DNA from: Paenibacillus sp. FSL K6-1330
Lineage (GTDB): Bacteria > Bacillota > Bacilli > Paenibacillales > Paenibacillaceae
Assembly (NCBI RefSeq): GCF_037976825.1
Contig: NZ_CP150269.1
Location: forward strand, 3,981,501-4,045,500
Length of the DNA stretch: 64,000 nt
Reading direction: 5' to 3'
Shown here: piece by piece, positions 4,132-58,251 of the stretch
Layout: the number at the start of each line of letters is the position of its first letter
How positions within the stretch are numbered: position 1 is the stretch's first letter
The notes under the pieces: generated by a model
The model's input: only the letters and a program-made list of their open reading frames with translations
The model's database searches: none
Told to the model about the DNA's origin: nothing
Program-made: the position numbers and the translations under genes

Positions 4132-5601
4132 TCAGGCTCTGTCGATTCCCCGTTCCTTCTGCCGCGCTTTGCAAATTGCAAAAACAAATGGTAGTGCCAG
4201 CACGACAATAAGCGTTGATAAAATGTTCAAATCGTTGATGCCCATCGTTGTGGACAGGTGGGCCAAGTTCGGTCCGACTTCCCCATCGGTCAGCCTTGCG
4301 GCGTGGTCAGCCGTACGTGAAGATAGCAGCGTGGTGAATAGAGCCACACCGAACGATACGAATACATTCCGCAGCCAGTTCTGAATGGAGGAGGCGTGTC
4401 CGATATATTCGCGGGAAATCTCCTCCATCCCGGCCGTCGTCGCCGGCATCAGCACCAGGGCGAGACCTAGACTGCGGACCGTCATCCACAAGAGCGTATA
4501 TGCAGATGAGCTGTCGATTTTCAGCCACGCTAGCGGCAAATTTCCTGCGGCCATCAACAGTACGCCAACAAGCAGTAGCGGCATGGGGCCAACCACTTTG
4601 TACAGCCGACCGACAACCAAGGACATAATCGCCATGGCACATGTAGCTGGTAACAGAATCATCCCCGAATCAAGTGGCGAATGTCCCTGAACATTTTGCA
4701 AGAAAACGGGAACGAGGAGCATGCCCGAAAAAAAGTTGATCATCACGATACACAGCAATATCACCGTCGACGTGAATCGCCGATTCAGAAATACTTTGAG
4801 CTGTAGAAGCGGCGTGTCGATTGACATCTCGCGCCAAAGAAACAGTGCTAGCGCCAATAGCCCGCCTCCCAGACAAAGCAGCGTACGGGCCGAGCCCCAT
4901 CCCCAACCGGAGCCTTGCGACAACGTGATCAACAGCAGCGAACTTGCGGCGATGACCGTCAGAAGCCCCCATACATCGAAACCCTTCGGTACTTTCAGAC
5001 GATAGTAAGGAATGAAGAAAACGGCAACAACGATCGCAAGCACGCCTAGCGGCACATTGGTCCAGAAGAGCCACTTCCAGGAGCCGTGCTGGATAAGCCA
5101 ACCTGCGTAAGTCGGTCCAATGGCTGGCGCCACGATCGAAGCTGCGATCCAGATGCTCATGGTGACAGACTGCTGGTGCCTGGGGATGATTTGAAATATC
5201 ATGGTCATCGACGCCGGCACTATAATACCGCAGAACGCGCCCTGAACAATGCGGAAGGCGATCAGCATCGACGCGTTCCAAGACAAGGCGCACAGTACGG
5301 AAGCAATCGTCATGCCAAGCAAGGCGAAAATATACAATCGCTTATAACTGAAGCGTTGGCCGAAATAGCCAGCTGTAGGCGCGAAGGTCCCGAGCGCCAA
5401 CATGAAGCCTGTCAGTGTCCATTGCACAACACTTAAGTCGGTTGCAAATTCTTTTTGCAAGACCGGCAAAGCTATATTAATCGTATTGCTATTCAACAGC
5501 GAAAGGAAGTTTCCCATGAAAATCGCTACAATTAATGGTATAAGCTTTAGGGGCTTCTGAGTTTGTTGCTCTTGCATGTTCATTACATTCGTTTTTTTCA
5601 T
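4132..5601 (-). CDS. MFS drug exporter, DHA2 (EmrB/QacA) family
   Basis: Proton-driven multidrug exporter of 489 residues with about 14 hydrophobic segments, the size expected for the DHA2 family. Diagnostic motifs are LNSNTINIALPVLQKEF in TM1, VQWTLTGFMLALG in TM2 and the antiporter motif C-like AIGPTYAGWL in TM5. The protein begins with a short hydrophilic tail (MKKTNVMNMQEQQTQ); the second or third Met could also be the start. Upstream, a MarR-type palindrome covers 5632-5645 and a MarR gene follows downstream, so drug- or stress-induced derepression is likely. The substrate is unknown. Confidence 0.92.
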   Translation of the reverse strand: MKKTNVMNMQEQQTQKPLKLIPLIVAIFMGNFLSLLNSNTINIALPVLQKEFATDLSVVQWTLTGFMLALGTFAPTAGYFGQRFSYKRLYIFALLGMTIASVLCALSWNASMLIAFRIVQGAFCGIIVPASMTMIFQIIPRHQQSVTMSIWIAASIVAPAIGPTYAGWLIQHGSWKWLFWTNVPLGVLAIVVAVFFIPYYRLKVPKGFDVWGLLTVIAASSLLLITLSQGSGWGWGSARTLLCLGGGLLALALFLWREMSIDTPLLQLKVFLNRRFTSTVILLCIVMINFFSGMLLVPVFLQNVQGHSPLDSGMILLPATCAMAIMSLVVGRLYKVVGPMPLLLVGVLLMAAGNLPLAWLKIDSSSAYTLLWMTVRSLGLALVLMPATTAGMEEISREYIGHASSIQNWLRNVFVSFGVALFTTLLSSRTADHAARLTDGEVGPNLAHLSTTMGINDLNILSTLIVVLALPFVFAICKARQKERGIDRA

Positions 5602-48870: not shown

Positions 48871-49329
48871 TTAATTGGTCTTACTAGATTCTTTCATCTG
48901 TTGAATCTGGCTGTTCAGCTTCTGCAGCACTTGAACAAACGCAAGTCGTTCTGATTCTGTAAGGTCTGCCTGCAGGGCCTCCATAAATCGATCTTTCTCC
49001 GCTCTAAACGTTGCTACTTTTCTCTTGCCTTCTTCGGTTAGCTGAACTAACGTAATCCGGTTGTCATTCTCACATCTGGTTCGCAGAAGCATTCCTTCCG
49101 CTTCCAACTGCTGAACATGCCGGGTCACCGCAGCAGGATCAATAGACACTGCCTTCTGCAGATCCGATTGGCTAATTTGGCCCCCCGTCAGTTTGCATAG
49201 GAGTTCGAGCCGATTGGGACTAACTCCAGCACAACGTTCAAACCGGGTCGCTATATGCTTGTTTAAATGCATTAGCAAGTACAGCAGGTCTTCTGTATGA
49301 CATGTAGAGATGATAAATACCTCCTTCAA
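48871..49329 (-). CDS. MarR family regulator with unusual start context
   Basis: Winged-helix regulator of about 150 residues. The recognition region is SQSDLQKAVSIDPAAVTRHV and the wing RTRCENDNRITLVQLTEEG. The frame opens at TTG 49329, but AAGGAGGT immediately follows that codon. The next in-frame codons at correct spacing are ATC ATC, and the first in-frame ATG is at 49272 inside the conserved dimer helix. The true start is therefore uncertain. Two palindromes lie just upstream, so it probably autoregulates and controls the nitroreductase-ABM pair 28 bases downstream. Confidence 0.85.
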   Translation of the reverse strand: MKEVFIISTCHTEDLLYLLMHLNKHIATRFERCAGVSPNRLELLCKLTGGQISQSDLQKAVSIDPAAVTRHVQQLEAEGMLLRTRCENDNRITLVQLTEEGKRKVATFRAEKDRFMEALQADLTESERLAFVQVLQKLNSQIQQMKESSKTN

Positions 49330-49332
49330 TTC

Positions 49333-49361
49333 ATTGACTCGTCAATAATTGATGGGTCAAT
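49333..49361. promoter_or_regulatory. Tandem MarR-type operators
   Basis: ATTGACTCGTCAAT (49333-49346) and ATTGATGGGTCAAT (49348-49361) are adjacent inverted repeats of the ATTGA-n4-TCAAT type directly upstream of the marR-nitroreductase-ABM unit. Confidence 0.72.
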
Positions 49362-49541
49362 CATATATCTTTATTTACAGAAAATCAAGTCCCCTTGCAG
49401 AAAATAAGACCGCCAAAGATTCCGTTCAGGGAACTTCATCGGTCTATTCAGTAATTTTAATTACCTAGCTTCTACACCTGGATGAGGTTCATTTCTTCGT
49501 GGATAAAACACAAAGTCTTTATGACAGATCATCCCAATCTC

Positions 49542-50228
49542 TTACTGCCAGCGAAGTTCTGCAATGACCGGATAATGATCCGACGCGTCGTAAGGAATAA
49601 CCCTGGCTGTGGCCAGTTCTGTCGGCATGTTTACAAAGATGTGATCGATCTCCTTACCATTTTCCATGGTAGGCAGGTTGTTCTGAAGCGTGACTTTTGT
49701 CCATCGGGCGTTCAACCGTTTCATGAAAGGATCGTCCATCTCCATATTAAAGTCCCCGGCCAGGATCGTCGGTTGTTCCAGTTTCTCTAAAGCATTCCAA
49801 AGAATTGGGTTCTGTTTTATCCGTTCTTTCATATGTACCCCCAAATGGGTATTTACTACTGTAACCACGTCTTCATTGATTTGCAGTTTTACCATTAAGA
49901 TGCTCCTTCTCTCTTTAGACCCGCCAATATACTGAATTTCTTTTGAAATTATCGGATAGTGGCTTAAAATAGCGTTTCCATATTGAAAAATAATGAGATT
50001 AACGCTAGGAGAGAAACAAGCGTGCATCCCGAGCTGTTTAGCCAGCCTTTTCAGCTGATCTCGAAAGCCGCTTCGGGGCAGAAAACGGTCCACCCCTTGC
50101 AATGCAACAATATCCGGTTGGACTTTTGTGATCACTTCCGCTATGCGGCTCAAACTTGCTTTCCCATCTAATCCTTTTCCGTGCCGTATGCTGTAGGACA
50201 TCACTTTCAGATTGATGTTGTTATCCAT
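49542..50228 (-). CDS. Endonuclease/exonuclease/phosphatase (EEP) fold protein lacking one metal-site Glu
   Basis: Cytosolic protein of 228 residues. EEP-family motifs are present in order: VMSYSIRHGKG, PDIVALQGVD, VVNTHLGVH, ILAGDFNME, IDHIFV and SDHYPVIAEL, with the active-site His-Asp pairs kept. The second motif normally reads LQEVD, where the Glu binds catalytic Mg; here GGG codes Gly, one base from GAG. ATG 50228 follows AAAGGTG by six bases. The protein may be inactive or use a changed metal site. It is monocistronic. Confidence 0.88.
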   Translation of the reverse strand: MDNNINLKVMSYSIRHGKGLDGKASLSRIAEVITKVQPDIVALQGVDRFLPRSGFRDQLKRLAKQLGMHACFSPSVNLIIFQYGNAILSHYPIISKEIQYIGGSKERRSILMVKLQINEDVVTVVNTHLGVHMKERIKQNPILWNALEKLEQPTILAGDFNMEMDDPFMKRLNARWTKVTLQNNLPTMENGKEIDHIFVNMPTELATARVIPYDASDHYPVIAELRWQ

Positions 50229-50607
50229 ATGAATCACCTTTTCCATTTTATCTATCTAACCTTCGTGTAGTTTACAATGGATATAAAAGTTAATGATCAG
50301 ATGAAGCGATGAAATCTAACAGCAGGCTTAGCCCTGGAACCCTTTGTTATTTTTTCACAAAATGTGAATATTCATAAGTTCCAATTAATGTTAATAACGC
50401 TATATTTAAACTACTATCCTTTTACCCTAAATAAGAACGGAAACTGATCGTGAATATTCTTACAACAACAGAATCAACCTTTTCAACAAACATATCCAGG
50501 GGCATCATGCAGCGGTCGCTATTTGCCATTAAATAAGGCCGGATAGCATACTCTGATGTATGTCGTTTTATAATTTCATACTCATATCTCGAAGAATCCC
50601 ATCTTGA

Positions 50608-50622
50608 TGGCACGAAAATTGC
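50608..50622 (+). promoter_or_regulatory. Consensus sigma-54 (-24/-12) promoter of the aspartase-like gene
   Basis: TGGCAC-GAAAA-TTGC matches the TGGCAC-N5-TTGC consensus exactly, 50 bases before the ATG at 50673. The local rpoN and enhancer-binding-protein genes make its use likely. Confidence 0.88.
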
Positions 50623-50672
50623 TTATTATCCCTATAAGGAAATGACGACACAACATTTTCGAAAGGGATGAG

Positions 50673-51830
50673 ATGATGATGTTAAGAATTGAACGGGACA
50701 AGAATGGAGAGGTCAACGTGCCCTCCCATGCATACTACGGTGTGGAGACGATGCGCGCTGCCGGAGAATATCCCACTGTGAACGCTCGTGTCCATAGCGA
50801 ATTTATTAAGGCTTTGGCTTCCGTCAAAAGCGCTACCGTACGTGCAGGCATAGAGCATAGCATCGTGCCGGAGCGAATCGGAAATCTCATTATGAAGGCG
50901 ACGGATGAAATCATGGATGGAAAGCATTCGGAGCAATTTATTACAGATTATATCCATGGTTCTTCAAGCAATATCCTGAATGTGAATATGAACGAGGTCC
51001 TTGCCAACCGGGCACTGGAGCTGATGCTTGAGGATAAAGGAAACTATGCGGTGGTTGATCCAGACATTCACGTGAACGGCCCTCATACAGCCGATTGGAT
51101 CATTTCGACTACGCTAAATGTCGCCGCCCATCAATCTTCGCACAAGTTAATCACAGCCATCGAGGGATTAAAGTATCGATTATGGATGGCAAAAGAACTT
51201 CTCGAGGGACAACGTCCGGCCGATTCCGCGGATTCTGTTATGATGGTGTCGACACGACTGATCCGTTTTTTCAGGGAATCCGCGAAGCAGCTGCAGCTCG
51301 ATGCGACGGCGCTCACGGAAGCCGCCTCCCGATTAAAGAGCATCCGGATCGCTTCCGCACCGGATGCTGCCATGCCCCATTCGTATTGCGAATTAACGGA
51401 GAGAACCGTCTCTTACTTAAGGCAAATTACTCGTACTGATTATTTTGCAGCAAGTCACTACCAAGATTCTTCTTCCGTCAGCAAAAGCGCCTATGCAGAC
51501 CTTTCATCGGTTCTGAAAACATTGGCTGTTAATCTGTTCAAGCTATGCTGCGATATTCGGAACGCCTTTATGAGTGAGAAGGATATGAATCCGCCGAACC
51601 GCATTTACTATGAATCGGCTGGATTTTTGCATCAGGTCTGTATGCAGGTTATTGGATATGACCATATCATCAATCTCGCCGAGGAAGCCGGGATGCCTGA
51701 TGACGACACCGTTCCTCCGGTAATCCTCTACCATTTAATGGAGTCGCTTGACATTATGATGAAGGGAATCGGATCGTTTGCAAGTTCGCTGACACGAGAG
51801 CAGAATGATGCCGATACAACAGCCGACTGA
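50673..51830 (+). CDS. Degenerate aspartase/fumarase-superfamily protein
   Basis: Protein of 385 residues. VPSHAYYGVETMRAAGEYP, FIKALASVKSATVRAGIEH, VNMNEVLANRALELMLEDKG and CMQVIGYDHIINLAEEAG align with aspartate ammonia-lyases. However, the family is about 470 residues, and the catalytic segments are altered: GAGTSTNMN is replaced by HGSSSNILN, SQSTND by GPHTAD, and the mobile GSSxMPxKxN loop by FMSEKDMNPPN. The general-base Ser loop is thus lost. AAAGGGATGAG precedes the ATG. It is a probable pseudoenzyme, perhaps a regulator or partner in amino-acid catabolism, under a consensus sigma-54 promoter. Confidence 0.85.
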   Translation: MMMLRIERDKNGEVNVPSHAYYGVETMRAAGEYPTVNARVHSEFIKALASVKSATVRAGIEHSIVPERIGNLIMKATDEIMDGKHSEQFITDYIHGSSSNILNVNMNEVLANRALELMLEDKGNYAVVDPDIHVNGPHTADWIISTTLNVAAHQSSHKLITAIEGLKYRLWMAKELLEGQRPADSADSVMMVSTRLIRFFRESAKQLQLDATALTEAASRLKSIRIASAPDAAMPHSYCELTERTVSYLRQITRTDYFAASHYQDSSSVSKSAYADLSSVLKTLAVNLFKLCCDIRNAFMSEKDMNPPNRIYYESAGFLHQVCMQVIGYDHIINLAEEAGMPDDDTVPPVILYHLMESLDIMMKGIGSFASSLTREQNDADTTAD

Positions 51831-51864
51831 AGGAAAATAACGCACCGCCTCAGGAGTATTGAAA

Positions 51865-52098
51865 ATCGAATAGGCGGCTACTAATAGTTGAGTAGCCGCC
51901 CTTCCACACCACCGTACGTAAGTTCGGTATACGGCGGTTCAATCGCTTAAGTGCAAGTTACGCATGCGCTCGTACTGCGCAGGAAAGTCGTAATATCCTG
52001 CCTGTGCGAGCTTTTCATATGTAATCGAACGCTGTAATATCGCGCTTACGGCTATATACAGATTTTCATCTCCAAGTTATCGCCCATGCTTGGCGGAC
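51865..52098 (-). mobile_element. 3' end of a group II intron with ltrA tail (5'-truncated remnant)
   Basis: On the minus strand, a frame encodes an LtrA-type tail (SITYEKLAQAGYYDFPAQYE, then a stop). It is followed by a domain V-like hairpin with arms CCGCCGTA and TACGGTGG (51917-51945). Next comes a domain VI-like stem GGCGGCTAC/GTAGCCGCC (51873-51900) and the TATTCGAT end typical of bacterial introns of this class. The ribozyme core and nearly all the reverse transcriptase are missing, so it is inactive. Confidence 0.8.
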
Positions 52099-52104
52099 CC
52101 AAGT

Positions 52105-52138
52105 AAGGGTGTCTCGGAAACCTATCCGAGACACCCTT
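52105..52138. terminator. Strong bidirectional terminator at the rpoN 3' end
   Basis: AAGGGTGTCTCGG and CCGAGACACCCTT form a perfect 13-bp stem that ends two bases before the rpoN stop. Confidence 0.9.
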
Positions 52139-52140
52139 TT

Positions 52141-53451
52141 CTATCTGCGCTTGCGGAATGAGGAGGGCATAATCTGCATTTGTTCCCGATACTTCGCAAC
52201 CGTTCTGCGAGACAGCCGGATTCCCTCCGCTCGCAGCATATCCGCCATATGCTGGTCCGAATAGGGAATGTTTTTATTTTCGGCGTCGATAAGCTCCTTG
52301 ATTCGGGCTTTAACACTCCGGGAGGATACACCGCTACCGCCCGTCGTCGATAGTCTAGCGGAGAAAAAATATTTCAGAGGGAGCACACCATGCGGCGTAA
52401 GTACGAATTTACCGTTCACCGCCCGGCTAACGGTCGATTCATGCAGGTCCAGTTTGGTGGATATCGTATTCATCTTCATCGGTGCAATTCCCTTGATTCC
52501 TTCAACCAGAAACTGTCCCTGCTCCTCCATAATGGCATTGACGACCCTCATCAGCGTCCGGTTCCTCTTCTCCAAGCTCCGAACCAGCCAACGGGCAGAT
52601 CGGACGCAGCTGCTCAAATACGAAGTGGCTTCGGCTGATCCCCGCAACTTAACCCATTCTCGGGAGGAGTTGTTAATGGAGAGCTTGGGGAGATTTTCCG
52701 GATGGATCGACACTATGAAGCCACCCTCATAGTATTCGACGATCGCATCCGGAACGATATACTCTGGCTCGAACGAGGCATACGCCAGCCCCGGACGAGG
52801 ATTCAATCCGCGAATATATTCCGATGCCGTCCTTGCCGTCTCCATGGGTATGTTCAAAGCCATTGCGATCTTCTCCAGCTTCCCGTATGCCAGCTCCGAC
52901 ATATACCGGTCTACGACTTCATACGCATACGGAGCGGCCGCCGGATCTCTATTAATCTGCAGCAGCAGGCATTCACTCAAATCTCTGCAGCCGACACCGG
53001 CAGGCTCTAACGATTGCAATGCCTCATGGGCGCTCCGAATAAGCTCTTCTGATACGTCAAGCTTCCTTCTGATTTCGGTGATCGGGATATCCAGATATCC
53101 GTCATCCCTTAGATTCCCCGCCATAAATGCCGCAATTCGGTATACCTCCCTTGGCAAGGGGAGCATACGCAGTTGGCTCCTAAGCCTTGACTCCAACGTG
53201 TCCTGCGACTGCCTTGCGTTCCGTAATGGGTCCATCTCGTACCCATTGCTGATTGTGGCCCTTCTCCTGTAGCCATAAGCGTCGTAATCCCGTCTGAATT
53301 CGAGTTCAAGGACCGGGTTTTCAGCTTCCTGCTCCTGTAAATAACGGACCAGGTCTTCGGCGGACATGGTTAATATATGAATCGATTGCTTCAGTTCAGG
53401 AGTTATTGCCAGCTTCGTGCTTTGGTCTTGCACTAATTGATAGCTCAGCAA
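52141..53451 (-). CDS. rpoN: RNA polymerase sigma-54 factor
   Basis: Alternative sigma factor of 436 residues that directs RNA polymerase to -24/-12 promoters and needs an AAA+ activator. Region I is present at the N-terminus (QLVQDQSTKLAITPELKQSI, Gln-rich), the core-binding domain follows (LEPAGVGCRDLSECLLLQI), and the C-terminal RpoN box reads SRRTVAKYREQ, close to the ARRTVAKYRE consensus. It lies beside P5C dehydrogenase, proline dehydrogenase and their enhancer-binding protein, with three -24/-12 promoters within 5 kb. The start at 53451 has GAGGAGGAGAAT upstream. Confidence 0.95.
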   Translation of the reverse strand: MLSYQLVQDQSTKLAITPELKQSIHILTMSAEDLVRYLQEQEAENPVLELEFRRDYDAYGYRRRATISNGYEMDPLRNARQSQDTLESRLRSQLRMLPLPREVYRIAAFMAGNLRDDGYLDIPITEIRRKLDVSEELIRSAHEALQSLEPAGVGCRDLSECLLLQINRDPAAAPYAYEVVDRYMSELAYGKLEKIAMALNIPMETARTASEYIRGLNPRPGLAYASFEPEYIVPDAIVEYYEGGFIVSIHPENLPKLSINNSSREWVKLRGSAEATSYLSSCVRSARWLVRSLEKRNRTLMRVVNAIMEEQGQFLVEGIKGIAPMKMNTISTKLDLHESTVSRAVNGKFVLTPHGVLPLKYFFSARLSTTGGSGVSSRSVKARIKELIDAENKNIPYSDQHMADMLRAEGIRLSRRTVAKYREQMQIMPSSFRKRR

Positions 53452-53545
53452 CAGATTCTCCTCCTCCCGCAGGCTCTCTTCAATGAATATACTGTTCCCT
53501 CTTGACTATACTCAAAAACATTCGAAATGAACATCATGATTTCGT

Positions 53546-53561
53546 GTCTAATATTTTAGAC
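53546..53561. promoter_or_regulatory. Candidate enhancer site for the local activator (downstream of P5CDH)
   Basis: GTCTAATATTTTAGAC is a perfect palindrome around TATT. Thirteen of its bases recur at 58105-58120 behind the activator gene. It lies beyond the 3' end of the P5CDH gene, a downstream location used by RocR-type activators in Bacillus. Confidence 0.6.
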
Positions 53562-53598
53562 TATATATGATATGTTGAGCGTTTTGATGTTCATCCTG

Positions 53599-55146
53599 CT
53601 AGAAGCGCTCAGCTACCAGCTTTGCCTGCGTAAACAACAGCAAATAATCCCGACCGCCGGCTTTTGAATCCGTGCCTGACATATTAAATCCGCCGAACGG
53701 ATGCGTTCCGACCAAGGCGCCAGTGCATTTGCGATTGAAATACAGATTGCCAACGAAAAGTTCGCGTCTTGCCGTCTCCAGATTCGGCCCGCTACGAGAA
53801 ATGACGGCACCGGTCAAGCCATAATCCGTATTGTTGGCATACGCCACCGCCTCATCAAAGGTTTGCGCCTTCGTGAATGTAACTACCGGACCGAATATTT
53901 CTTCCCGCGAAATCCGGGCATTCGGGTCTACATCCGCGAAAATCGTCGGTTCGATGAAGTATCCGTTCGGATCTCCTGTGCCGCCACCAAGGACCAAGCG
54001 TCCTTCCTGTTTTCCGATTTCGATATACTCCTGAATTTTGAGGTATGCCTTTTCATCAATAACAGGACCTACATCGGTTGCGGCGGCTGCCGGGATACCC
54101 ATTACCAGCTGACTTGCCCGCTCCACTACACGCTGCAGCACGATGTCGTAGACTTTCTCATGGACGATAGCCCTGGAACAAGCCGAACACTTCTGCCCGG
54201 AGAAACCGAAGGCGGACAGCGTTATGGCGTCCACCGCCAGATCGAGGTCTGCATCCTGATCAACGATGATCGCATCTTTGCCGCCCATTTCCGCAATGAC
54301 ACGTTTGATCCATTTTTGCCCAGGCTGCGTCTTGGCCGCCCGTTCATTGATGCGGAGTCCAACATCGCGGGAGCCTGTAAAGCTGACGAAACGGGTCAGT
54401 GGGTGATCAACAAGGTAATCGCCGACCTCTCCACCCGGTCCAGGAACGAAGTTGACGACGCCTGACGGCAACCCCACCTCTTCGAGCAGTGCCATAAATT
54501 TGGCAGCGATGACAGGTGTTGGACTGGCCGGTTTAAGGACGACGGTATTCCCGGATACAACGGCAGCCATCGTCATGCCTGCCATAATGGCCAATGGAAA
54601 GTTCCATGGCGGAATGATGACACCGACGCCTAAAGGCAGATAATACAGCTCATTCTCTTCTTCCTGGCTAACCGTTAATGGCTGCGGCTGGCTAAGCCGC
54701 TGTATCTCGCGTCCATAGAACTCCAGGAAATCGATCGCCTCCGCCGTTTCAACATCCGCTTCTACCCGGGTCTTCCCAGCCTCAAATGTCATCAAGGCAG
54801 AAAATTCATGTCTGCGCCGGCGCAAAATAGCTGCTGCCCGGAATAAATAACGTGCACGCTCATTCGGATCAGTCCGCTTCCAAGTCTCAAATGCAGCTGC
54901 AGCCGCCTGCATTGCCTGCTCCGCATATTGTACATTCGCCTGAGATACGATACCGACCACCTGAGCTTTATTCGCAGGGTTAATGGAGACGGCTTTGTGC
55001 TCAGTCATGATGCGCTCACCTCCGATGATTAGCGGATACTCTTTGCCAAGTCCTGCCTCCGTCTGCTCAAGTACGCGGTCATATTCCGCATTGTTACGCT
55101 CATCCTTAAAGTTAACAAACGACTCGTTCCTGAATTCAGTTCTCAT
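53599..55146 (-). CDS. rocA: L-glutamate gamma-semialdehyde (1-pyrroline-5-carboxylate) dehydrogenase
   Basis: NAD-dependent enzyme of 515 residues converting glutamate semialdehyde to glutamate, the second step of proline and arginine breakdown. Aldehyde-dehydrogenase motifs are present: [20 protein letters not shown], the general-base Glu in [10 protein letters not shown] and the nucleophile Cys in [16 protein letters not shown]; length equals firmicute RocA/PutC. ATG 55146 is favoured with AAAGGGTGG upstream. It diverges from proline dehydrogenase, and its promoter is a perfect TGGCAC-N5-TTGC sigma-54 site. Confidence 0.95.
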
Positions 55147-55222
55147 AATTATTACCCACCCTTTTTCGTGTGATTTGGGTAGAATCGTCAAACCCTATTC
55201 CACCGGTCCTCTTGGATAATAA

Positions 55223-55237
55223 GCAATTATCGTGCCA
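55223..55237 (-). promoter_or_regulatory. Consensus sigma-54 promoter of rocA-like gene
   Basis: On the minus strand, TGGCAC-GATAA-TTGC matches the consensus exactly, about 75 bases before the P5CDH ATG. It is followed by the same TTATTATCC as the aspartase-like promoter. Confidence 0.9.
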
Positions 55238-55258
55238 ACTGTGCTTGTTTCTTTCGTC

Positions 55259-55273
55259 TGGAACGATTTTTGC
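55259..55273 (+). promoter_or_regulatory. Sigma-54 promoter of proline dehydrogenase gene
   Basis: TGGAAC-GATTT-TTGC differs from the consensus at one position of the -24 element. It is 65 bases upstream of the GTG start and only 22 bases from the divergent rocA promoter. Confidence 0.82.
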
Positions 55274-55337
55274 TTGCAGTTAAACCTGGTAAAGATTCAT
55301 TGCACGAGCAATGACAGCCTGAAAGGAGAAATCAACC

Positions 55338-56258
55338 GTGGATAGTACTGAACTCTATCGAAAAGTATTATTATCAGTTTCCGGCAATAAGCTGGTCGAG
55401 CATCTTGCCCTTCGGTACGGCCGTAAATTAGCAGCTAAATTCATTGCAGGTAACAGCTTGGAGGAAGCGTTGGATGAAATTGAGAGGTTGAACGAGAAAG
55501 GGATCATCGTCACATTGGATCATTTGGGGGAGGGAATCACACAGTTATCGGAAGCTGCAGGCTACAGAGAGGAATATATACGCTTAATTAATGGGATCGC
55601 CATGCGGAAGGTGAACTCCAACGTATCACTGAAGCCAACGCAGATGGGCTTGGCCCTTGATCCAAAAGCATGCTATAGCAACATTCGGGACATCGTCATC
55701 CAAGCTGAACAAGATAACAATTTCGTACGGATCGATATGGAGGATTCTCCCTTTACACAAGCGACAATCGATATCGTTCTTCGCCTTCACGGGGAGGGAT
55801 TAACCAATGTCGGGACTGTGATTCAAGCCTACTTGCTGCGTTCACGCGAAGATGTGAAGCGATTGATTGAAGCTGGTGTAAACCTCCGTCTCGTAAAAGG
55901 AGCGTACAAGGAGCCGGCATCCGTTGCCTATCAGCAAATGAGCGAAGTCATCGATAACTTCAAAGACCTCATTCAAATGCACCTTGACCAAGGCGTGTAC
56001 ACCGCCATTGCTTCGCATGATGATCGCATCATCGATTGGGTCAAGGGATATGCTCTTAAGAACGGCATCCCGAACGATGCCTACGAATTCCAGATGTTGT
56101 ACGGCCTGCGAATGAACGACCAGGCGCAATTGGCGAAGGAAGGCCACCGAATCCGCTGCTATATGCCCTACGGCAGCATGTGGTACCCGTACTACACCCG
56201 ACGTCTGGCAGAAAAGCCTGCTAATCTATGGATGGTCGTCAAAAATATGTTCAAATGA
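55338..56258 (+). CDS. putB: Proline dehydrogenase (PutB/FadM type)
   Basis: FAD-dependent enzyme of 306 residues oxidising proline to pyrroline-5-carboxylate. The TIM-barrel features are seen as VTLDHLGEGI, NVSLKPTQMGL, VRIDMEDSPF, VNLRLVKGAYKEPASVAYQ, ASHDDRII and YEFQMLYGLRMNDQ, with the C-terminal RRLAEKPANLWM typical of monofunctional firmicute enzymes. GTG at 55338 follows AAAGGAGA by eight bases. It is transcribed away from P5C dehydrogenase through a sigma-54 promoter, and the activator gene follows in the same direction. Confidence 0.95.
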   Translation: MDSTELYRKVLLSVSGNKLVEHLALRYGRKLAAKFIAGNSLEEALDEIERLNEKGIIVTLDHLGEGITQLSEAAGYREEYIRLINGIAMRKVNSNVSLKPTQMGLALDPKACYSNIRDIVIQAEQDNNFVRIDMEDSPFTQATIDIVLRLHGEGLTNVGTVIQAYLLRSREDVKRLIEAGVNLRLVKGAYKEPASVAYQQMSEVIDNFKDLIQMHLDQGVYTAIASHDDRIIDWVKGYALKNGIPNDAYEFQMLYGLRMNDQAQLAKEGHRIRCYMPYGSMWYPYYTRRLAEKPANLWMVVKNMFK

Positions 56259-56287
56259 TTTACACTGGAAAACAGGCCCGGTATAAT
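56259..56287 (+). promoter_or_regulatory. SigA-type promoter of the activator gene
   Basis: TTTACA and TATAAT are 17 bases apart, starting exactly at the putB stop; transcription would begin near 56294. The activator is thus probably made independently of sigma-54. Confidence 0.7.
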
Positions 56288-56343
56288 GGCCCTAGTACCA
56301 GATTGTAAGCATTTACATTTCCCATAAAATAGGGGGCAATCGA

Positions 56344-58083
56344 ATGAAGCATCTATTGCCGGCCGTGGAGCATTTCATCCGCACGGACTGCATAATTGTA
56401 GATCTGACTGACCTTGTAGCCATCCGGGGTGCACGGATGGCCGCCGAGTTCACCCCTGTTTTTGTCAGGGATGAGTCCGGTCAATATGCACTGCTGCCTG
56501 TATCGGCAGCCGAAACCATTCTGAATGTTCAAGATATCCTGATCAACGTCAAGACAGTAAACACAGATGATCCGTTAACGAAAGTCTCTGCTGCCTTCAG
56601 CTCTTGTTCATTGGCGATCGTTCTTAACGACGGCAAGGCTGTCGGTTACCTTTCCGCACAGGATGTTATGGATGCGGTGGTGCAGGCTCACCGGGTGCTG
56701 GAGGCTTATTTTGCAACAACGCTGGATACCTTGGACCCGGACGTTGCCATTACGCTGATTGACGAGGAAGGATGTGTAGCCGTCTGGACGTCAGGAGCGG
56801 AGCATATATTCTCCATTCCGAAAGAGGATATCATCGGCAAGCCTGCTTCGGATTTCTTTCCCGTCGATCGTCTGCAGTCTCTTCGCACGCTCGAAACCGG
56901 CCAGCCCGCCCATAAAATGCAGCATCGGCCGCGGCACGACCTGTTCGTCCTAATTAATTCGAATCCGGTTACTCTCGAGGATCGGATTATTGGCGCCGTT
57001 GCGGCGGAATCAGACCTGACCACCCAAATGCGGCTGCATCAAGAGCTGCTGCAGATGACAAGCAAGGTCCATCATCTTCAGAAGGAAGTGGCCCTGCTGA
57101 ACCCTGCGGCAGACCCATTTCAGCATATCAAGGGAACGAGCCGCGCGATTAAACACAGTATCGAAACGATCAAGAAGATCAGTTCGACGAAAGCGACGGT
57201 GCTTATCCTGGGTGAGAGCGGTACCGGAAAAGAATTATTCGCGAAGGCGATCCACGAGTCCCGCGAGTCGATGAACGCCCCCTTCATTGCAATCAATTGC
57301 GGAGCCATACCAGCCGCACTGTTCGAGAGCGAATTATTTGGCTACGAACGGGGCGCTTTCTCAGGTGCAGACCCGAAAGGGAAGAAAGGGAAGATCGAAC
57401 TGGCCCGCGGCGGCACCCTATTCCTTGACGAGATCGGGGAAATGCCTCTTGATCTTCAGGTCAAGCTGCTGCGCGTGCTCCAAGAACGGAGTTACTTCCC
57501 GGTCGGCGGCACGAAGTTGCTGCAGGCCGACTGCCGGATTATCGCGGCCACAAACCGTGATTTGAAGCGAATGATTGATGACGGTAGCTTTCGCGAGGAC
57601 CTATATTACCGGCTAAACGTCGTAACTTTGGAGGTTCCCCCCTTACGCGCCCGCAAAGAAGATATTTACGAGCTGACACAGTCCTTTCTTCACGAATTCT
57701 CGCTCGTTTATGGCCGCCATATCCATTCGTTTACGCCGGAGGTATTCGAGGATTTGCTTCATTACGATTGGCCTGGCAACATCCGCGAGCTGCGCAACAC
57801 CATTGAGCGCCTCGTCATCTTCTCTACCGAAGGAGAGATTCGGCGCGAATATTTGCCAGACCATATTTATTCTGGCGATAAGAGTCCGCAGCCGGGAGAG
57901 GATGTTGGTCCAAGCACCGCACCCATCAACGGTGCTACTTACCAGGCTAGGCTTGACGAGTACGAACGGAACCTAATGCGTGAAGCGCTTGAAGCGGTCA
58001 ACGGGAACAAGTACACGCTGGCGAAGCAGCTCGGCATTTCGCGGGCTACGCTCTACAACAAGCTCAAACGGCTGAAACTGTGA
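56344..58083 (+). CDS. Sigma-54-dependent enhancer-binding activator with CBS-like and PAS domains
   Basis: AAA+ activator of 579 residues. An N-terminal CBS-like pair (about 10-115) and a PAS domain (about 120-225) precede the central ATPase with Walker A GESGTGKE (290-297), GAFSGA loop (337-342, Thr of the usual GAFTGA replaced by Ser), Walker B GGTLFLDEIGE and arginine finger REDLYYRLNV. A Fis-type helix-turn-helix (YTLAKQLGISRATLYNKLK) ends it. RocR-like proteins of this plan control arginine and proline catabolism. Sigma-54 promoters and candidate enhancer repeats flank it, and rpoN is 3 kb away. Confidence 0.93.
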   Translation: MKHLLPAVEHFIRTDCIIVDLTDLVAIRGARMAAEFTPVFVRDESGQYALLPVSAAETILNVQDILINVKTVNTDDPLTKVSAAFSSCSLAIVLNDGKAVGYLSAQDVMDAVVQAHRVLEAYFATTLDTLDPDVAITLIDEEGCVAVWTSGAEHIFSIPKEDIIGKPASDFFPVDRLQSLRTLETGQPAHKMQHRPRHDLFVLINSNPVTLEDRIIGAVAAESDLTTQMRLHQELLQMTSKVHHLQKEVALLNPAADPFQHIKGTSRAIKHSIETIKKISSTKATVLILGESGTGKELFAKAIHESRESMNAPFIAINCGAIPAALFESELFGYERGAFSGADPKGKKGKIELARGGTLFLDEIGEMPLDLQVKLLRVLQERSYFPVGGTKLLQADCRIIAATNRDLKRMIDDGSFREDLYYRLNVVTLEVPPLRARKEDIYELTQSFLHEFSLVYGRHIHSFTPEVFEDLLHYDWPGNIRELRNTIERLVIFSTEGEIRREYLPDHIYSGDKSPQPGEDVGPSTAPINGATYQARLDEYERNLMREALEAVNGNKYTLAKQLGISRATLYNKLKRLKL

Positions 58084-58100
58084 AGCTAGCTTGGATGGAC

Positions 58101-58141
58101 GAATGTCTAATATTTTGGACACTTCAATTTTGAATGTCTAA
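58101..58141. promoter_or_regulatory. Candidate enhancer repeats behind the activator gene
   Basis: GAATGTCTAA occurs at 58101-58110 and again at 58132-58141, 31 bases apart (three helical turns). The first lies in GTCTAATATTTTGGAC (58105-58120), nearly identical to the palindrome at 53546-53561. Confidence 0.6.
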
Positions 58142-58251
58142 AATTGCATACATAATGGAATTATCAGCCAATTATGAATCATACACGCTTGTACCTTGCT
58201 TTTCTTGCTGACTTCCATCGTATTGATCTGTTCATTATTTCCCAAAAACGA

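Follow-up and report, generated by a model that had tools for sequence, protein, structure and literature searches.

A conserved pseudoenzyme in a proline-linked sigma-54 locus of Paenibacillus, probably formed in place from an aspartase

Analysis of a 64-kb stretch of DNA (64,000 nucleotides, hereafter the window) from a single-contig Paenibacillus genome (7.4 Mb) indicated, on the evidence of sequence comparison, that a gene within a proline-linked sigma-54 locus very probably encodes a conserved pseudoenzyme formed in place. This open reading frame (50673-51830, + strand) specifies a protein of 385 aa, here called pseudo-aspartase, which was characterized by its matches to aspartase models, the disappearance of the catalytic positions and a fold model. 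Read from its sequence, the product is a pseudoenzyme: catalytic residues have been lost throughout the orthologues, and the gene has been kept by selection. The original prediction had described an aspartase-like protein with a degraded active site under a sigma-54 promoter. Beyond that description, it was found that the locus carries its own sigma-54 gene together with the only activator found (in 13 of 16 genomes), and that in a sister genus, g18, this place is occupied by an intact aspartase.

The 385-aa product resembles aspartases across residues 4-372. Nevertheless, it did not reach the curated cut-offs of the aspartate ammonia-lyase families (NCBIfam), scoring far under that of the aspartase model TIGR00839 (189.5 vs 681.2 bits) and under those of PRK12273 (204.9 vs 510) and PRK14515 (177.7 vs 876), while the Pfam Lyase_1 model was matched above its cut-off (54.3 bits vs 27). 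The window genome encodes a separate canonical aspartase (AspA, G000:C1:638844), 34% identical to pseudo-aspartase, and a fumarase-like protein (G000:C1:7019493), 27% identical. A fumarase identity was discarded, as matches to fumarases were weaker than those to aspartases. The aspartase N-terminus is retained, together with a predicted five-helix bundle. Alignment to the genome's own AspA revealed that HVNMSQSTND is replaced by HVNGPHTADW and that the GRTHLQDA segment, the GSSIMPGKVNP loop (SS loop) and the entire C-terminal domain are missing. Counted from the equivalent start, AspA has approximately 469-472 aa, so that the length deficit of about 85 residues claimed originally is correct, as is the claimed loss or alteration of the catalytic segments.

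To compare catalytic residues, pseudo-aspartase was related through the genome's own aspartase to the solved enzyme 1j3u, in which we take T101, T187-H188, S318, K324 and N326 to be the catalytic residues. Twelve positions of the active-site region were constant in 49/49 full-length aspartases. None of the 15 full-frame short proteins retains T101, S318, S319 or K324; H188, T141 and M321 each survive in a single protein, while two keep N326, three T187, five N142 and six S140, with the counts near 187 and 321-326 resting on a loose alignment; aligned column 191 is Asp in aspartases. Position 101, always Thr in the full-length enzymes, is acidic (Asp/Glu) in 11 of the 15 short proteins. The SS loop and the C-terminal domain are missing from all 15, and the loss of catalytic residues is common to every full-frame orthologue aligned. 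Half of the 54 invariant residues of the short proteins (27) lie in residues 1-30 and 96-135, the latter segment, which is the first catalytic region, holding 16 of them, and no invariant residue was found in residues 181-225. Over short and full-length rows together, 31 columns were invariant (gap columns included).

Retention of the fold markers, as had been proposed, was apparent both from the alignment and from the structure model. The model, built from 27 sequences (pLDDT 82.7, pTM 0.85), predicts long helices at residues 138-177, 185-220, 271-298, 305-337 and 347-372; an earlier model built from 15 sequences was poorer (pLDDT 76.3), with an unsure N-terminus. The best solved match of the 27-sequence model was 3r6y, a chymotrypsin-treated aspartase (chain 3r6y_A, TM 0.83, rmsd 3.9). 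Domain 1 followed by a long five-helix bundle, the hallmark of the aspartase/fumarase superfamily, is thus present in the predicted structure. This is the arrangement of Bacillus sp. YM55-1 AspB (solved as 1j3u and, after chymotrypsin treatment, as 3r6y), but AspB has the catalytic residues, the SS loop and the C-terminal domain that pseudo-aspartase lacks. Active sites in this superfamily are assembled from three subunits.

Of 100 genomes of the genus screened with a profile, 16 encode the short form. Paenibacillus sp. EZ-K15 belongs to the same species as the window genome, and P. lactis is a relative. The order pseudo-aspartase> <rpoN <P5CDH proDH> activator> was found in all 16; as these genomes are related, they do not amount to 16 independent events. 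An rpoN of the window type (54-100% identity) occurred in exactly those 16 genomes out of 100, as did a close proDH (80-100%). Among 392 genomes of the order, the short form was confined to the Paenibacillus genus of the window (11 of the 16 were sampled), with a clear gap (E 5.7e-164 to 1.2e-120), and among 398 genomes of the class only the window's own genome matched at E 1e-121. The 15 short proteins formed one clade in the tree (100/100). Plasmid records contained 337 matches to pseudo-aspartase, all below 60% identity, and the best 5 of these 337 were annotated as aspA.

Maintenance of the gene, another element of the original prediction, was borne out by its presence in 16/16 loci and by dN/dS values (NG86) of 0.18-0.31, well below 1 in 8/8 pairs; all eight pseudo-aspartase rows were used, the genomes G000 (the window genome) and G002 (P. 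lactis) each entering two pairs. Values obtained with YN00 were higher (0.22-0.46). For the other genes, four rows (68 codons or fewer, early in-frame stop) were left out; dN/dS of rpoN was similar to that of pseudo-aspartase (0.14-0.30) and that of the activator lower (0.09-0.15), and in most pairs pseudo-aspartase evolves faster than P5CDH, proDH or the activator. Pseudogene decay was not apparent in 15 of the 16 copies, whose reading frames are uninterrupted over their whole length, and a recent pseudogene was thereby ruled out for these. In the remaining copy (G019) the first residues lie in another frame. The aspA gene of G019 likewise lacks its N-terminal frame, which makes assembly errors possible in that genome. 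Because of this frame, G019 was excluded from the alignments, residue counts and second and third trees; counts of gene order, promoters, rpoN and activators do include it.

The neighbours of pseudo-aspartase define the locus. Convergent with it and adjacent in 16/16 genomes lies rpoN, encoding sigma-54 (52141-53451, - strand; TIGR02395, 408 bits vs cut-off 277), followed by the gene for P5C (L-glutamate gamma-semialdehyde) dehydrogenase (P5CDH; 53599-55191, - strand; TIGR01237, 770 bits vs cut-off 660), that for proline dehydrogenase (proDH; 55338-56258, + strand; Pfam Pro_dh, 121.8 bits, above cut-off) and that for a PrdR-like sigma-54 activator with PAS, AAA+ and Fis-type HTH domains (56344-58083, + strand; PrdR model, 516 bits, under the cut-off of 795). 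The window genome contains one rpoN and a single PF00158 match, the locus activator, both within the locus. Likewise, the locus activator is the only sigma-54 activator (PF00158, E <= 1e-15) in 13 of the 16 genomes; the other three (G014, G061 and G081) contain a second activator plus a second, distant rpoN.

Several further features of these regions were recorded. The rpoN at 52141-53451 is far more variable than P5CDH (53-63% vs 81-84% identity to the same 12 relatives). Second, distant rpoN genes were located at L168, L169, L170 and L171 (genomes G014, G061, G081 and G098), beside other catabolic genes, among them one for an aldehyde dehydrogenase approximately 31% identical to P5CDH. By eye, L168 and L170 also encode an FAD oxidase and a protein like dihydrodipicolinate synthase, and L170 has racemase-like ORFs; the second rpoN loci are perhaps a hydroxyproline-type island. 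L170 and the nearby L176 encode an activator 53% identical to that of the window, and sigma-54 genes in this group may travel with their own catabolic loci. The proDH gene of P. lactis (G002:C8:34794-35711, in L079) carries one in-frame TAA. Between pseudo-aspartase and rpoN, a remnant resembling the 3' terminal part of a group II intron was noticed (51865-51939, - strand; RF00029, E 0.00053, 29 bits, under the gathering score of 40). Its surroundings occur twice more in the window genome and once more in G104, and were not found in G002 or G006. No Rfam match at gathering level was obtained in 49000-58200.

A -24/-12 site of the sigma-54 type, TGGCACGAAAATTGCT (50608-50623, + strand), precedes pseudo-aspartase and carries 11/11 consensus letters, as does TGGCACGATAATTGCT (55222-55237, - strand), the site of P5CDH; that of proDH, TGGAACGATTTTTGCT (55259-55274, + strand), carries 10/11. 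The first two are the only 11/11 sites in the window, confirming the consensus promoter of P5CDH style that had been attributed to the gene. A chance promoter was ruled out, as 60 first-order simulations of the window gave an expectation of 0.017 such sites per 64 kb. Sites of at least 9/11 precede pseudo-aspartase, P5CDH and proDH in 16/16 genomes, and the sharing of sigma-54 sites with the proline genes, from which co-regulation had been proposed, is therefore general among the orthologues. The gaps before rpoN and the activator contained only two score-8 sites in the 16 genomes, both before rpoN. Up to 400 bp upstream of the canonical aspA, no site of at least 9 was detected in the 16 genomes, and one of score 8 was present (G020). 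With its -24/-12 site kept and both sigma-54 and an activator present in the genome, pseudo-aspartase is a predicted sigma-54 target.

Across the whole window genome, a tight sigma-54 pattern gave four exact matches, two of them promoters in the locus (including that of pseudo-aspartase) and two inside reading frames. When one mismatch was allowed, 38 sites were found against 16 for the reversed control pattern, an excess that makes further sigma-54 targets possible; surroundings were inspected for seven of the one-mismatch sites outside the locus. A 10/11 sigma-54-like site is also found at 5302-5317 (- strand), within a transporter-like ORF (4132-5601), and chance alone would give approximately one 10/11 site per 64 kb. 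Regarding activator binding, no convincing palindrome or shared word emerged when the 220 bp upstream of the gene were compared with the P5CDH-proDH gap in 16 + 22 genomes. From the -12 element to the start codon (approximately 50630-50672; same place in L033, L034 and L035), the window, EZ-K15, P. lactis and G006 share an almost unchanged leader, and the DNA directly upstream of the -24 element differs among the four. This conserved leader could contain a downstream activator site or a translational signal.

After the short form, the next best matches in the order were full-length aspartases of the sister genus g18, of which 67 genomes were among the matches listed. The 26 g18 loci analysed were the top of the score list and not a random sample. 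The arrangement aspartase> <rpoN <P5CDH proDH> was found in 22 of the 26, with the activator seen in 18 of these 22; in three of the others (G153, G359 and G230) an activator lies at most 3 kb beyond the stretch examined, and in G123 on another contig. One activator each was detected in the eight g18 genomes searched. All 22 locus aspartases contain the three motif groups (STND, GRTHLQDA and SS loop) and are preceded by a 10/11 sigma-54 site, and the P5CDH and proDH sites of these loci score 10 or 11 of 11. The remaining four loci (L141, L143, L166 and L167) are without rpoN, the aspartase still lying beside proDH; no site of at least 10 precedes the aspartase in them, and one of 9 is present in L143. 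A single aspartase at E <= 1e-70 per genome was found in the 22 g18 genomes, among the candidates scored (at most four per genome).

Compared with pseudo-aspartase, the AspA of the g18 loci (for instance L140, L142 and L148) shares place, orientation, the rpoN-P5CDH-proDH neighbours and the sigma-54 site; it differs in its length (approximately 490 aa) and intact motifs, with 33-34% identity in the loci measured. In the aspartase tree, the short clade adjoined the g18 locus aspartases (85/79), a position made uncertain by its long branch, and both grouped with the four rpoN-less loci (100/99). The rpoN tree also placed the pseudo-aspartase loci with the g18 loci (94/91). That pseudo-aspartase is derived from the full-length aspartase still present in g18, or occupies the same position as it, is well supported by these sequence comparisons. 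The intact aspartase with its sigma-54 site at the same place in g18 points to a sigma-54-controlled aspartase that turned pseudoenzyme where it stood.

Aspartate connects glutamate with fumarate and ammonia. The ancestral locus would have produced ProDH, P5CDH and aspartase together, so that proline would be converted to glutamate and then, through transamination and aspartase, to fumarate and ammonia. Where another canonical aspA existed, the locus copy would have lost its active site and C-terminal domain and kept the subunit core. During proline use, sigma-54 would induce pseudo-aspartase, whose retained five-helix bundle may allow it to join or contact the real AspA and to lower or tune its activity, so that aspartate flux would follow the breakdown of proline. 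Such a present role, that of a non-catalytic partner tuning AspA during proline use, is suggested tentatively from sequence and fold model. It is favoured because the subunit core is what remains and an aspartase is always present, a canonical enzyme with all motifs being encoded elsewhere in 16/16 pseudo-aspartase genomes. Against it count the frequency of aspA without the locus (aspA is present in 64/100 genomes of the genus, hence in 48 of the 84 without the locus), the faster evolution relative to proDH and the activator, and the tree comparison, in which co-evolution of pseudo-aspartase with AspA did not go beyond species history. The pseudo-aspartase tree joins G010/G075 to the window genome's group and the rpoN tree does not, but this grouping looks like species history, since the P5CDH + proDH + activator tree joins them too. 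The specific version in which the dead aspartase acts as an inducible regulatory subunit, mixing into or capping the real aspartase tetramer and so tying aspartate breakdown to proline supply, is somewhat doubtful.

Other explanations were weighed against the partner role. Pseudo-aspartase might instead sense a ligand for the locus, binding an amino acid or dicarboxylate at the remnant of the first catalytic region and acting on the activator, on sigma-54 or through P5CDH/ProDH feedback. Its constant position beside rpoN and two genes from P5CDH, and the concentration of invariant residues in 96-135, would fit such a regulator, and the acidic residue at position 101 makes a different ligand conceivable; however, g18 has an intact enzyme at the same place with no hint of a regulatory role, and we consider this unlikely. 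An equally improbable reading holds that a second aspartase made the locus copy dispensable, leaving a slow relic, expressed and folded yet on its way out. The rapid evolution relative to P5CDH, proDH and activator, the long branches and the shifted frame of the G019 copy agree with it, although the gene is kept in 16/16 loci spanning 81-98% P5CDH identity, with its promoter kept in all of them and dN/dS well below 1 in every pair, and the defect of G019 aspA suggests that the assembly of that genome contains errors. A function unrelated to aspartase, whether a new activity or scaffolding of ProDH/P5CDH, would explain why the gene always occurs together with the locus's proline genes, but no new motif was recognised and the kept residues are those of aspartases (the 31 invariant columns, gap columns included), making this quite improbable. 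Finally, it is scarcely credible that pseudo-aspartase is still an aspartase or related lyase: the N-terminal half and the fold are aspartase-like, but S318, K324 and T101 have disappeared from all 15 full-frame short proteins and H188 from 14 of 15, in addition to the general absence of SS loop and C-terminal domain.

Within the delta-crystallin/argininosuccinate lyase member of the superfamily, an inactive form exists. Delta-crystallin resembles pseudo-aspartase as interpreted here in belonging to the same superfamily and having a non-metabolic role, but it is a full-length bird lens protein with no link to sigma-54 or proline. It is named among moonlighting enzymes in a review (PMC10211241). 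As described in the available portions of two studies, the SigL/sigma-54 regulons of B. thuringiensis and Clostridiales govern amino-acid use, proline supports hardly any growth of a B. thuringiensis sigL mutant, and PrdR is an activator (PMC4428206, PMC6615313). From those portions, such regulons comprise several activators and many targets, whereas here one sigma and, in 13/16 genomes, one activator lie inside the target locus itself. Neither "aspartase" nor "aspartate" appears in the accessible main text of PMC6615313. According to the part available of another study, B. subtilis aspartase can run backwards, assimilating ammonium in mutants (PMC10938345). No report of pseudo-aspartase or of the proline sigma-54 locus of the window was retrieved in a literature search with subscription journals mostly outside it. 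Pseudoenzymes and superfamily members with other roles are already known, and a pseudo-aspartase at a proline sigma-54 locus is new as far as found.

The persistence of the gene, its place and its sigma-54 site despite catalytic loss suggests a non-catalytic job. With one sigma-54, usually one activator and three recognised promoters in a single locus, the system appears to be a sigma-54 regulon of very small size and would make a convenient model. Moreover, as an enzyme and its apparent pseudoenzyme descendant occupy the same locus under the same kind of promoter in sister genera, the states before and after the change can be compared and swapped. If pseudo-aspartase were indeed an inducible regulatory subunit, a former enzyme would now regulate the aspartase that replaced it, and would do so from its original genomic position.
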